A DNA stretch of 64,000 bases from Desulfobulbaceae bacterium (GTDB lineage: Bacteria > Desulfobacterota > Desulfobulbia > Desulfobulbales > Desulfobulbaceae): the NCBI GenBank assembly GCA_011391865.1, contig JAABPV010000087.1, positions 1-64,000 of the forward strand, in the 5' to 3' direction. The translations under genes and the position numbers were made by a program. Numbering within the stretch: position 1 is the first letter of the stretch; each line of letters begins with the position of its first letter. Positions 21,797 to 26,732 of the stretch are shown here, piece by piece. The notes beneath the pieces are model-generated. The model ran no database searches. It was not told the origin of the DNA and saw only the letters and a program-made list of their open reading frames with translations.

Positions 21797-22756
21797 ATGA
21801 AAGCTGTGCAGCGAAACAAGCGGATATTGATCACCGGCGGTGCCGGGTTTCTCGGCTCGCATCTTTGCGAACGGCTGCTGGCCGAAGGCAACGATGTAGT
21901 TTGTTTGGACAACTACTTCACCGGTGCCAAGCAGAACATCCTGCCGCTGCTGGGCAATCCGCATTTTGAGCTGCTCCGCCACGATGTGACGTTCCCCCTC
22001 TATATTGAGGTGGATGAGATATACAACCTCGCCTGCCCAGCCTCGCCGATTCACTATCAGTTTGATCCGGTGCAGACCACCAAGACCTCGGTGCATGGGG
22101 CGATCAACATGCTGGGCCTCGCCAAGCGGGTGAAAGCGAAGATATTCCAAGCCTCCACTTCCGAAGTCTATGGCGACCCGCAGATTCACCCGCAGCCGGA
22201 ATCCTATTGGGGTCATGTCAACCCGAACGGCATCCGTTCCTGCTACGATGAGGGTAAACGCTGCGCCGAGACGTTATTTTTCGACTACTACCGTCAGCAC
22301 AAGCTGCGGATCAAAGTGGCCCGGATATTCAACACCTACGGGCCGCGAATGCACCCCAACGACGGGCGGGTGGTTTCCAACTTCATCGTTCAGGCCCTGC
22401 TCGGCGAACCGATTACCATCTACGGCGACGGTGCTCAGACCCGCTCCTTCTGCTATGTCGATGACCTGATTGAGGCGTTCATCCGCCTGATGGCCACTGA
22501 GGACGATTTCACCGGCCCGGTCAACACCGGCAATCCAGGCGAGTTCACCATTCTGCAATTGGCTGAAAACGTGCTGGAACTGACCGGCTCAAAGTCCGAG
22601 CTGATCTTCAAGCCGCTGCCGCAGGATGACCCGAAGCAGCGGCAGCCGGACATCACTTTGGCCAAGGAAAAGCTCGGTTGGGAGCCGAAGATTTCTCTGC
22701 GCGAAGGGCTGGTTCCGACCATCGCTTATTTTGACGATTTCCTCCGCAAGCAATGA
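21797..22756 (+). CDS. UDP-glucuronate decarboxylase (UDP-xylose synthase)
   Basis: A 319-residue extended short-chain dehydrogenase. The start at 21797 has GGAGTGGAG upstream. [14 protein letters not shown] binds [12 protein letters not shown] and the Y-x3-K pair in RSCYDEGKR form the catalytic site; [18 protein letters not shown] is the UXS-type segment. It oxidises and decarboxylates UDP-glucuronate to UDP-xylose for surface glycan. It overlaps gmd by 4 nt and opens the polysaccharide operon. Confidence 0.93.
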
Positions 22757-23838
22757 AAACAGCTCTGATCACCGGTGTCACCGGGCAGGACGGCGCGTAT
22801 TTAGCTGAACTTCTGCTTGAAAAAGGCTACTCCGTGCATGGCCTCAAGCGCCGCTCCTCGCTCTTTAACACGGACCGGGTGGATCATCTCTACCAAGATC
22901 CGCACGAGGAGGATGTCCGTTTCAAGCTCCATCACGGCGATCTGACCGATGCCACCAATTTGATCAGAATTGTGCAGGAAGTTGAGCCGGATGAAATTTA
23001 CAATCTGGCCGCGCAAAGCCATGTGGCGGTGTCCTTTGAGACCCCGGAATACACCGCCAACAGCGATGCGCTCGGCACCCTGCGCCTGCTGGAGGCTATC
23101 CGCATCCTTGGTTTGGAACGCAAAACGCGCTTCTATCAGGCCTCCACTTCCGAGCTGTTCGGCAAGGTGCAGGAAATTCCGCAGAGCGAGACCACGCCGT
23201 TCTATCCCCGCTCGCCCTACGCGGTGGCCAAACTCTATTCGTATTGGATCACGGTAAATTACCGTGAAGCCTACAAGATGTACTGCTGCAACGGTATTCT
23301 TTTCAATCATGAATCGCCGGTGCGGGGAGAGACCTTTGTCACCCGCAAGATCACCAGAGCCTTGGCGCGGATCAAGCTGGGCTTGCAGGACGCGCTCTTT
23401 CTCGGCAATCTTAATTCCTTGCGCGACTGGGGTCACGCTAAGGACTATGTGCGGATGCAGTGGCTGATGCTCCAGCAGGAGCAGCCGGAGGATTTCGTCA
23501 TCGCCACCGGCAGACAGCATTCTGTGCGGGAATTCGTGGAAATCGCCGCTGAAGAGCTGGGCATGAACATCGTCTGGCAGGGCAGCGGGCTGGAAGAGGT
23601 CGGCATTGAGCGCAAAAGCGGCAAGAGCATAGTCCGCGTTGATCCCCGCTATTTCCGCCCGACTGAAGTTGAAACCCTGCTTGGCGATCCCTCCAAGGCC
23701 AAGGAAAAGCTGGGCTGGGAGCCGAAGATCAGTTTTGAGGAGATGGTGCGCGAGATGATCGTCGAAGACTTGAAACTGGCAGAGCGGGATCAGGTTGTGC
23801 GGCAGAAGGGGTATAAGGCGTATAATTATTTTGAGTGA
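22753..23838 (+). CDS. gmd: GDP-mannose 4,6-dehydratase
   Basis: A 361-residue GMD that forms GDP-4-keto-6-deoxy-mannose. Visible are [16 protein letters not shown] (NADP site), [26 protein letters not shown], the catalytic [10 protein letters not shown], and [17 protein letters not shown]. It should hand its product to the GDP-fucose synthase at 25779, normally the adjacent gene; a 1.9-kb AT-rich island now lies between them. Length is normal. Confidence 0.96.
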
Positions 23839-23870
23839 TGTTGATCCAACTATCTAACGGAGCAAATAAA

Positions 23871-25022
23871 ATGGAAAGTAAGATTTCAAGGCCAGCCGCC
23901 GTCGTTAAACAGGGAAATTTAACATTATATACGACTTCTTTAAGAGTCTCAGATTTACTGAGACCTAATTTTTATAATGTTGAAACGTTAGATTCTGATA
24001 ATAATGACCAAGGATATCAACGACTATTAAATCATTCGCGTGCCAAAAAACTTGCAGATTATATTATAAAAGGAATTGAAACAAAAGATGCTTTCCTCCC
24101 AACAAGTATTTTTATAGCCACAGATAAAAAAATAGCCTTCAATGAAAAAACAAATACTATATCTTTTGACATCAATCATGTCGGTCCTTTTTCTGTTGTT
24201 GATGGTCAACATAGGATTGAAGGTTTAAAAATAGCTTGCGAAAAAAATAAAAAAGTTTTGGAATTTGAAATACCTGTGAATATCGCGCCCGAATTACCAA
24301 AAATATCACAAATGTGTCATTTTTTAATTGTTAATACTACACAGAAGAGTGTCGATAAGGCTGTTGAGCAACGGATATACGCTCGTCTAACAAGGGCTTT
24401 AGAAGTTGAAAATATTCCATCGTTACCTAAATGGATTACAAGAGCTATTGAGAAAGGAGAGGATGATTTGGCTTTGAAATTTGTTGATTTTTTGAATTCA
24501 AATGAAAATTCCCCTTGGAAAGATCGTATCGAAATGGCTAACAAGGAAGACAAGAATACCACTGTAACTCAAAAGAGTTTCGTGAGAACAATCAAACAAT
24601 TTGTTTTGATTGATAGCAACCCTTTAAATATTTACCCAGAGGAAAAGCGATTGAAAATATTTCTCAATTACTGGAAGGCTATATCAAATATTCTTTATGT
24701 TAAAGAGCCAACAGTATTATTTAAATATAATGGAATTCAGTTGTTTTGTCGTTTTTGTGTCCCTTTTTTTTCTAAAATACATGCCACTAATGATAATGGG
24801 GGCGGATTTACAGTTCCAGCAATGGAAAGCCTTCTGAAAGCTACCTTTGAAAATCTTGATGGCGAAAATGCAATGATAGGCCATCCTAAATGGTGGAATA
24901 GCGGCAGCGAAGGAAAAGCGAGTTATCTAAATTCTGGGGCATTGCATAGAATTGGATCGGAGATGGCAAAGGCTCTGCATAAAACAAACTTAAATAAAAA
25001 TATTACAGACTGTGAAGTATGA
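23871..25022 (+). CDS. DGQHR-domain protein (DndB/DpdB-like)
   Basis: A 383-residue protein. The start at 23871 (MESKISRP) is the first Met after the gmd stop with an upstream purine run. The motif D111-G-Q-H-R115 (SVVDGQHRIEGLK) is diagnostic of the ParB-like DGQHR fold found in DndB of DNA phosphorothioation and DpdB of DNA deazaguanine systems. The remaining ~270 residues are helical and unassigned. The gene is markedly AT-rich against its neighbours. It overlaps the downstream GIY-YIG gene by 11 nt. It probably forms a DNA-defence or DNA-modification cassette with the next two genes; no modification enzyme is seen here. Confidence 0.8.
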   Translation: MESKISRPAAVVKQGNLTLYTTSLRVSDLLRPNFYNVETLDSDNNDQGYQRLLNHSRAKKLADYIIKGIETKDAFLPTSIFIATDKKIAFNEKTNTISFDINHVGPFSVVDGQHRIEGLKIACEKNKKVLEFEIPVNIAPELPKISQMCHFLIVNTTQKSVDKAVEQRIYARLTRALEVENIPSLPKWITRAIEKGEDDLALKFVDFLNSNENSPWKDRIEMANKEDKNTTVTQKSFVRTIKQFVLIDSNPLNIYPEEKRLKIFLNYWKAISNILYVKEPTVLFKYNGIQLFCRFCVPFFSKIHATNDNGGGFTVPAMESLLKATFENLDGENAMIGHPKWWNSGSEGKASYLNSGALHRIGSEMAKALHKTNLNKNITDCEV

Positions 25023-25353
25023 TCAGTTAGTTCCATACCCTTCATTCAAAATGATTTTTTCTTATTCGGTATCATTTCAAGTTCATAAAAATTCAGGATG
25101 CTATACGATAACAAGTTTCTCTGGAGAGATACTGTATATTGGTCTTTCAAGAAACTTAAAAAATAGATTTTGTCAGCATCTTGAAAATAAGGAAAAAACA
25201 AAAAGTGGGTATTACGGAAAGCCTTCATTTTTTAATTATTTATTAGCAGAGGAGTATCTTCTTGAAAGGATCGAGAGAACATGGATGCATCAATTTGAGA
25301 TATTACATGGACATCTCCCGGTACTTAACAAGGTGTCATCACCTTTAGCATAA
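25012..25353 (+). CDS. GIY-YIG nuclease domain protein
   Basis: A 113-residue single GIY-YIG domain. The two halves of the motif read GCYTI and LYIGLSRNLKNRF-x2-H, a candidate catalytic Glu lies in LLAEEYLLERIE, and PVLNK matches the usual terminal Asn. It is AT-rich, overlaps the DGQHR gene by 11 nt and is followed after 8 nt by a second nuclease-like gene. A DNA-cleaving role in the island is inferred. Confidence 0.8.
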   Translation: MKYDQLVPYPSFKMIFSYSVSFQVHKNSGCYTITSFSGEILYIGLSRNLKNRFCQHLENKEKTKSGYYGKPSFFNYLLAEEYLLERIERTWMHQFEILHGHLPVLNKVSSPLA

Positions 25354-25361
25354 CGTTTTCC

Positions 25362-25754
25362 ATGAAAAAATATATTGATTGTGTTCGCAAGTTATGCAAT
25401 AAGATTAAGTGCAATTGTCTCTTAAACAGAAAATCTGTGGTATATGACGGATTAGCAAAAGAATTTCCGCAGGTTATTTTTGAAGAAAGCGATCCGCAGC
25501 TTGACCACGCGGGAGATGTTGAATATGTTGCTAAAATAGGATGCAAATCTTTCGGCATCCAAATCAAGCCAGTCACAGCAAAAGCAAATTTCGGCAATTA
25601 CTCGCCCAGCGAGCGCATGAAAGCGAGCTTTAAAGAGTTTGAGGAACAATACGGCGGCAAGGTTTTCATCGTCTTTAGTTTGGACGGAGAAATTGCCAAT
25701 AAAAATGTTCTCGATGAAATTAAACATGAAATAGAGCGATTAAGCAGTTTATAA
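25362..25754 (+). CDS. MjaI-like restriction endonuclease fragment or small nuclease
   Basis: A 130-residue protein. The centre reads DHAGDVEYVAKIG, then SFGIQIKPVT, fitting a PD-(D/E)XK core in which Q replaces the usual acidic residue (QIK). The later NYSPSERMKASFKEFEEQYGG and VFIVFS resemble the C-terminal half of MjaI-type restriction enzymes. Known MjaI-like enzymes are longer, so this may be a truncated or minimal form. It is the last gene of the AT-rich island. Confidence 0.6.
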   Translation: MKKYIDCVRKLCNKIKCNCLLNRKSVVYDGLAKEFPQVIFEESDPQLDHAGDVEYVAKIGCKSFGIQIKPVTAKANFGNYSPSERMKASFKEFEEQYGGKVFIVFSLDGEIANKNVLDEIKHEIERLSSL

Positions 25755-25778
25755 CATTTTCTCTGAAAATAAAACAGC

Positions 25779-26732
25779 ATGGCTTTATCTCTGGCCCCTT
25801 CCTCGTCCATTTACATCGCCGGTCATCGCGGCTTGGTCGGCAGCGCGATCTGTCGTGCGCTGGCGCAGGCTGGCTGCGCGAATCTGCTCACCCGCACTCA
25901 CGCCGAGCTGGATCTGACTGATCAGGCTGCCGTGCGCCGCTTTTTCGCCGAGGCGCGGCCTGATTTTGTCTTTCTTGCAGCGGCCAAAGTCGGCGGCATT
26001 CACGCCAACAACAGCAGCCCGGCGGATTTTATCCGCGACAACCTGCTGATTCAGACCAACATCATTGACGCAGCGTGGCGCAGCGGCGTGAAGAAGCTGC
26101 TTTTTCTTGGCTCCTCGTGCATTTATCCCAAATTCGCACCGCAGCCGATGCGGGAAGAGCACCTGCTCACCGGCCCGCTGGAGCCGACCAATGAATGGTA
26201 TGCGATTGCCAAAATTGCGGGCATTAAAATGTGCCAAGCGTACCGCAAGCAGCACGGCTTTGATGCAATCAGTCTGATGCCGACCAATCTCTACGGGCCA
26301 GGCGACAATTTCGACCTGCACAGTTCGCATGTTTTGCCCGCGTTGATCAGAAAATTCCACGAGGCCAAGCTGAATCAATTGCCGGAGGTGGAAATCTGGG
26401 GCAGCGGCAGGCCAAAACGGGAGTTTCTTCATGTTGACGACCTTGCTTCTGCCTGCCTTTTCCTAATGGACAAGTACAGCAGCGCGGAAATAATTAATAT
26501 CGGCTCAGGGCAGGAAGTCACCATCGCCGAATTGGCATCTTTAGTGAAAGAAATTGTCGGCTTTGCAGGCGGACTCCGCTATGACACCGCCATGCCCGAC
26601 GGCACACCGCGCAAGCTGCTTGATGTCTCCAAGCTCTCCGCCTTAGGCTGGCAGAGCAGCATCAGCCTGCGCGACGGCATTGCCGCTACCTATCAGTGGT
26701 TTCTTGATCATGACCAGCAGCTCCGCCTGTAA
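25779..26732 (+). CDS. fcl: GDP-L-fucose synthase
   Basis: A 317-residue epimerase/reductase that finishes GDP-L-fucose from the GMD product. Motifs are [11 protein letters not shown] (NADP), [11 protein letters not shown], the SSCIYPK segment and catalytic [13 protein letters not shown], and [18 protein letters not shown] content returns to the level of the cluster here. It is followed directly by the ABC exporter (start on the nucleotide after the stop). Confidence 0.95.

Follow-up and report, generated by a model that had tools for sequence, protein, structure and literature searches.

Related systems

DGQHR proteins are widely annotated, mostly without a function. Their domain has three motifs in common with GmrS domains, namely QR, DGQHR and FxxxN (PMC4619093). 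The HNH nuclease of GmrSD, BrxU, SspE and DndI is under the control of a ParB/Srx NTPase module that bears a DGQQR motif (PMC10952713, PMC11662687), and the gating of an HNH nuclease by a DUF262/DGQQR NTPase has precedent (PMC4619093, PMC11662687, PMC10952713). GmrSD and BrxU are type IV systems that combine DUF262 with a DUF1524-HNH nuclease, in adjacent genes or as a fusion, and contain no methyltransferase; SspE and DndI are phosphorothioate-sensing NTPase-HNH effectors partnered with a phosphorothioate modification operon. A GIY-YIG nuclease is found in CMoRE (PD-T4-3), a type IV restriction enzyme consisting of a single protein with a GIYxY-YIG motif and a C-terminal modification-sensing domain (PMC12923530). 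GIY-YIG-type nucleases are also reported among the genes near Dnd operons, not as a stand-alone pair with a DGQHR protein (PMC10853773). Such a pair, which is the subject of this analysis, is undescribed in the open-access literature that we searched (subscription papers and preprints lay outside the search), where DGQHR and GIY-YIG are mentioned together only in an unrelated sentence.

A low-GC island between gmd and fcl

The window, that is, the whole stretch of 64,000 nucleotides analysed here, belongs to a Desulfobulbaceae genome of 2.8 Mb in 87 contigs. Among named relatives, 'Candidatus Electronema aureum' (NQJD01000004) is the nearest one that shares the island, and since this species belongs to the same genus as the window genome, the host is a cable bacterium. 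The surroundings of the island, read off the ORF translations, comprise glgC-like, UDP-glucuronate-decarboxylase-like, gmd, fcl and ABC transporter genes, which we take to be a polysaccharide cluster. The AT-rich island of three ORFs pointed out in the initial annotation lies between 23838 and 25779 (Table 1) and, as was also stated there, holds no modification gene. Its GC content is 34.5% (34% in ORF1, 32% in ORF2 and 38% in ORF3) against 58.4% for the window, in which the lowest value of any other 1.9-kb stretch is 50.8%. The flanking Gmd is 93-96% identical to its orthologues in two congeners that have the same downstream site. The gap between gmd and ORF1 is near-identical in an alignment with 'Ca. 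Electronema aureum', and the pair formed by ORF1 and ORF2, with only this 32-bp leader, probably relies on the promoter of the gmd operon.

Table 1. The island and its flanking genes, in window coordinates
Feature	Position	Strand	Description
gmd (GDP-mannose 4,6-dehydratase)	22753..23838	+	left flank; intact ORF of 361 aa
gap between gmd and ORF1	23839..23870	+	32 bp; GGAG resembling a ribosome-binding site
ORF1, DGQHR-domain protein	23871..25022	+	383 aa; TIGR03187, Pfam DndB; predicted ParB/Srx-type fold
ORF2, stand-alone GIY-YIG nuclease (predicted)	25012..25353	+	113 aa; Pfam GIY-YIG, structure model
ORF3, apparent relic of an MjaI-type restriction endonuclease	25362..25754	+	130 aa; intact orthologue L019:2490-3194, alignment with 19 homologues
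fcl (GDP-fucose synthase)	25779..26732	+	right flank; intact ORF of 317 aa; orthologues in L003, L019

The DGQHR protein and the GIY-YIG nuclease

Profile searches place ORF1 above the cut-offs of the DGQHR family TIGR03187 (E = 3.4e-35, 122.1 bits, cut-off 58.85) and of Pfam DndB (6.6e-15, 55.4 bits, cut-off 29.1), in agreement with the kinship to DndB and DpdB that had been read from its DGQHR motif. The match to GmrSD_N (GmrS/DUF262, PF03235) stays below the cut-off of 33.2 (17.7 bits, E = 0.0042). Although ORF1 shares the DGQHR domain with DndB, DpdB and DGQHR_dnd_1, it falls far under their equivalog cut-offs (20.1 against 328, 46.7 against 300 and 66 against 450 bits among these three) and, unlike them, lies outside dnd and dpd operons and has a fixed GIY-YIG partner: no dnd gene is adjacent, there is no dpd operon context, and the window genome gives no DndC match. 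The QR (residues 50-51), DGQHR (111-115) and FxxxN (151-155) motifs are all present; among the 46-52 homologues aligned, Q50, R51, D111-H114, F151 and N155 are invariant, and R115 is conserved in at least 90%.

Structure prediction, which had been suggested as a check of the DGQHR and GIY-YIG folds, yields confident models of ORF1 (pLDDT 88) and ORF2 (pLDDT 92). The top PDB matches of ORF1 are ParB-like (5k5a and PadC, 6ryk), with a probability of 0.95-0.96 and E-values of only 0.04-0.07; a sequence search of the PDB with the DGQHR profile matched no solved chain. As the E-values of these structural matches are weak, the assignment of a ParB/Srx-type fold draws on the family link as well, and by analogy ORF1 probably acts as an NTPase.

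ORF2 is confirmed as a member of the GIY-YIG family, the assignment made initially, by a Pfam match above cut-off (PF01541; 2.4e-7, 31.4 bits, cut-off 22.6) and by its model, which matches the N-domain of a plant glutaredoxin of the GIY-YIG fold and UvrC with a probability of 1.00; Eco29kI, Hpy188I and I-TevI are further structural matches. Its motif reads GCY...YIG, and its 113 residues comprise the nuclease part only, without a C-terminal or DNA-binding domain. Seven residues do not vary across 50 homologues (G29, Y31, G44, R52, H56, E88, N106), Y42 is conserved in at least 90%, and the catalytic Tyr/Tyr/Arg/Glu/Asn set of GIY-YIG enzymes is complete in ORF2. A Pfam search of ORFs 1-3 gave no match to the DUF1524 HNH domain.

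Co-occurrence and coupling of the two genes

Scanning about 85,000 species genomes once with an ORF1 alignment as query yielded 53 loci. A GIY-YIG gene lies immediately downstream in 45 of the 47 close DGQHR members that have downstream room; the exceptions are L052 and L064, and the count leaves aside L051, L072 and L074, which are at contig ends, and L076-L078, which are distant DGQHR proteins without GIY-YIG. The three-gene unit originally proposed therefore survives in part: the survey finds DGQHR and GIY-YIG genes together elsewhere, and the MjaI-like ORF is not among their recurrent neighbours. An all-against-all comparison of 545 neighbour proteins revealed no third recurrent partner. 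Five large plasmids, from Sinorhizobium, Rhizobium and Cupriavidus, carry the pair too, as do three prophage-type viral contigs, in one of which (L002) it lies antisense amid tail genes.

The two genes are joined by an NTGA 4-nt stop/start overlap, or have that junction, in 48 of 52 pairs; in the window, ORF2 as annotated starts early enough to overlap the ORF1 stop by 11 nt, compared with 4 nt in nearly all relatives. The DGQHR and GIY-YIG gene trees are concordant (Mantel rho 0.87 overall and 0.74 in the 35-member core clade, p = 0.001). Comparison of the two Electronema species shows purifying selection on both genes, with dN/dS of about 0.06 and 0.13 and with dS of the DGQHR gene near saturation, and the pair proteins diverge faster than Gmd. 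The DGQHR protein and the stand-alone GIY-YIG nuclease, catalytically complete by prediction, are a near-obligate and usually translationally coupled pair without a modification gene.

Several variants were seen around this core. The distant DGQHR proteins of Roseateles, Burkholderia glumae, Providencia and phage PfAC19 have no GIY-YIG gene. On Providencia and Burkholderia glumae plasmids and in the Pf-type phage PfAC19, a protein of about 300 aa follows other DGQHR genes by 0-12 bp (L088:4990-5874, L087:4898-5806, L089:5000-5974); it has no Pfam, PADLOC or NCBIfam match and possibly forms another DGQHR two-gene module. On rhizobial plasmids the DGQHR ORF carries an in-frame N-terminal extension of about 135 aa (L005:7590-7997, also in L004, L007 and L008), which in L005 matches DUF5655 barely above cut-off. 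Orphan GIY-YIG genes of the same family, apparently truncated and without a DGQHR gene, occur on Rhizobium plasmids (L083:3890-4255, L084:3890-4180, L085:3824-4165) and are likely decayed cassettes.

Distribution, mobility and genomic context

Hosts of the pair come from about a dozen phyla, including Pseudomonadota, Bacteroidota, Acidobacteriota, Myxococcota, Bdellovibrionota, Chloroflexota, Elusimicrobiota, Spirochaetota, Planctomycetota, Verrucomicrobiota and Thermodesulfobacteriota, together with a Methanoperedens archaeon. The archaeal copy falls inside a clade with 99% support that also holds Myxococcota, Acidobacteriota and Spirochaetota. It is located at L034:1581-3112 in a Ca. Methanoperedens MAG, on an 8-kb contig, and reflects either transfer between domains or mis-binning of this contig. 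The GC content of the pair lies below that of its flanks in 43 of 44 loci, with a mean difference of 12.5 points. On this sequence evidence the pair is horizontally mobile.

Neighbouring genes were called as mechanical ORF picks, and the context tallies are accordingly approximate. Some loci adjoin type I, type IIG/ISP-like or type III-like restriction genes, or AbiEii-type or SMC-type genes; others adjoin integrases and relaxases. Housekeeping genes (hom, aspS, gatB, pyrC, ubiD) flank the pair at many loci, and defence islands do not predominate. In a Gallionella MAG (L039:6201-10588), the pair stands between hom, encoding homoserine dehydrogenase, and thrC, presumably the threonine synthase gene as identified by eye, which makes a second split of adjacent biosynthetic genes.

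In two prophage-type contigs, a second DGQHR gene lies beside the pair on the opposite strand (L115:6000-8962 (-) and L114:7400-9088 (-)). The N-terminus of the L115 protein carries DNQIDVVAIDGEVAFAVECK, a PD-(D/E)XK-like motif, and a Dam methyltransferase gene is adjacent. The phage-borne joining of a PD-(D/E)XK-like N-terminus to DGQHR, right beside the pair, suggests that several nucleases occur in combination with DGQHR sensors.

Proposed function

The reading we favour, with moderate confidence, is that of a two-gene restriction cassette, horizontally mobile, which has come to occupy the place of an older restriction-modification (R-M) system, and in which the DGQHR protein would sense DNA and gate cutting by the GIY-YIG nuclease in a type IV-like manner. 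A minimal restriction-type cassette with the DGQHR protein as its sensing partner had been proposed in the initial annotation, and we judge that idea to be right; its defensive, anti-phage role is what we infer. The roles of sensor and gated nuclease are assigned because the anatomy of the pair follows the outline of GmrSD, BrxU, SspE and DndI, with a DGQHR module and a nuclease without a DNA-binding domain in one operon, and no gene for self-modification. In the proposed mechanism, the DGQHR subunit would bind NTP and DNA and detect a feature of incoming DNA, which may be a modified base or backbone in phage DNA or some other non-self state. An NTP-dependent rearrangement of this subunit would then license the small GIY-YIG nuclease to cut. 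Apart from the exchange of the HNH module for a GIY-YIG module, the logic would be that of GmrSD, BrxU, SspE and DndI.

As in GmrSD and BrxU, a ParB/Srx-type module with QR, DGQQR/DGQHR and FxxxN motifs is associated with a nuclease and no methyltransferase is present, whereas the sensor of the pair belongs to the DGQHR/DndB family instead of DUF262 (GmrSD_N being below cut-off) and the nuclease is of GIY-YIG instead of HNH type. SspE and DndI likewise combine a ParB/Srx module with a nuclease, the gating in the pair being assigned by analogy, but unlike them the pair has no adjacent Dnd operon. CMoRE also joins a GIY-YIG nuclease with a sensing module, and thereby offers a precedent for modification-dependent defence; in the pair, by contrast, a nuclease without a C-terminal domain is accompanied by a separate DGQHR protein. 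Dependence on phosphorothioation was considered and is unlikely, as only 3 of the 45 host genomes have a DndC that passes the cut-off, and the window genome gives no match.

More tentatively, the pair may represent a separate class of two-gene restriction system, consisting of a DGQHR NTPase-type sensor and a GIY-YIG effector without a self-modification gene, spread horizontally across bacteria and into archaea, and one of a wider set of DGQHR-nuclease combinations. With one DGQHR clade tied nearly one-to-one to a nuclease, an 'unknown function' becomes a testable sensor-effector pair, which would carry the logic of GmrSD and SspE over to another nuclease fold and, at only about 1.5 kb, is easily cloned and tested.

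A near-obligate two-gene operon with strong overlap, a small nuclease and a mobile distribution would also suit a toxin-antitoxin-like or abortive-infection pair, in which a host-damaging GIY-YIG nuclease is restrained by the DGQHR protein and freed on infection; ParB/Srx proteins can indeed be NTPases that regulate a nuclease (PMC11662687). The DGQHR protein is, however, large, looks enzymatic and is the better conserved of the two (mean column identity of 57-61% against 46-47% for the GIY-YIG protein in the homologue alignments), unlike a labile antitoxin, and the orphan nuclease fragments of Rhizobium occur without the partner, though they look truncated. We regard this alternative as unlikely, while giving it some weight.

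GIY-YIG is a classic homing-nuclease fold, and a selfish homing or intergenic-insertion element, whose nuclease cuts empty alleles so that the pair spreads between genes without benefit to the host, is favoured by the presence of I-TevI among the structural matches of ORF2 and by the clean, sporadic and AT-rich placement between gmd and fcl and between hom and thrC. Homing predicts the same site in many relatives, whereas the insertion sites of the pair all differ and have no recurrent neighbours, and inspection by eye of about 50 junctions revealed no shared flanking sequence, transposon or homing ends, or terminal repeats. Unlike I-TevI-like homing endonucleases, ORF2 has no attached DNA-binding region and requires a 375-aa partner, and some copies of the pair adjoin R-M genes. 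An element of this kind is accordingly quite unlikely.

A function in DNA repair or gene regulation, for example with a DndB-like regulator bringing in a UvrC-like incision enzyme, is improbable: UvrC N-domains are among the closest nuclease structures, and a role of DndB in transcriptional regulation is on record (as cited in a passage of PMC10853773), but the pair is sporadic, horizontally moving and AT-rich and has no consistent regulated neighbour, and the scarcity of DndC in the host genomes noted above also speaks against it.

The third ORF and the history of the site

Returning to the restriction cassette, the replacement of an older system is read from ORF3 and from the same site in a congener. 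The proposed relation of ORF3 to MjaI is upheld, while its membership of a trio is not. ORF3 matches the PADLOC type II REase model (2.1e-47), covering only positions 82-195 of 197, and RE_MjaI (PF09568) in the C-terminal half only, below the cut-off of 22.7 (0.15, 12.4 bits). A complete type II R-M system occupies the same gmd/fcl site in a genome of the same genus (G004, locus L019). Its REase (L019:2490-3194, 234 aa) belongs to the MjaI family (RE_MjaI 2.3e-28, 99.5 bits; PADLOC REase_II 3e-98), and its methyltransferase (L019:1193-2500) is of the N6/N4 type (MTase_II 4.5e-182). PDB sequence searches with ORF3 and with the intact L019 REase gave chance-level matches only.

Homology between the two proteins begins at about residue 24 of ORF3, corresponding to residue 126 of the REase, so that the first 125 residues are gone; the remainder is 81% identical over 107 residues. 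In the alignment with 19 homologues, a Glu in ORF3 replaces the invariant Asp156, which lies in the VD(F/Y) motif and probably serves as the catalytic Asp in the PD-(D/E)XK site, and the ORF3 start has no clear ribosome-binding site. In 'Ca. Electronema aureum' (G003), which keeps the pair, the REase remnant spans about 35 codons and contains a stop. The R-M methyltransferase is absent from both island-bearing genomes, which elsewhere contain only distant methylases. Judged by its sequence, ORF3 is an N-terminally truncated gene in decay, left over from a separate type II R-M system: it descends from the REase of an MjaI-type system, but the island retains only the C-terminal half of that enzyme and has lost the methyltransferase. 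The idea of a three-gene restriction cassette in which ORF3 is a functional nuclease subunit, to which the intact frame and the unaccelerated evolution of the retained half would lend support, is already largely refuted and highly improbable in view of the truncation, the Glu at the invariant Asp, the short interrupted remnant in the sister species and the lack of recurrence of ORF3 beside the pair.

The retained half of ORF3 evolves no faster than the intact L019 enzyme (76% and 77% identical, respectively, to the nearest homologue), and the truncation therefore looks recent. By a rough neutrality argument, an ORF3 that had been decaying as a pseudogene ever since the sister species diverged should by now contain stops, which suggests that the truncation in the window genome is probably recent, or else that the two lineages lost the R-M system independently. 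The 5' junction, near-identical in the window genome and 'Ca. Electronema aureum', is common to them by descent, so that the pair itself most likely entered once. It would have taken over the site of the older R-M system either by replacement in one step or by insertion beside it before lineage-wise deletions. The gmd/fcl site thus presents a defence-type cassette where a congener has its R-M system, with the remains of the older system still readable. The C-terminus of the L019 methyltransferase is SNase-like, with a Pfam SNase match of 3.3e-4 that is barely above cut-off.
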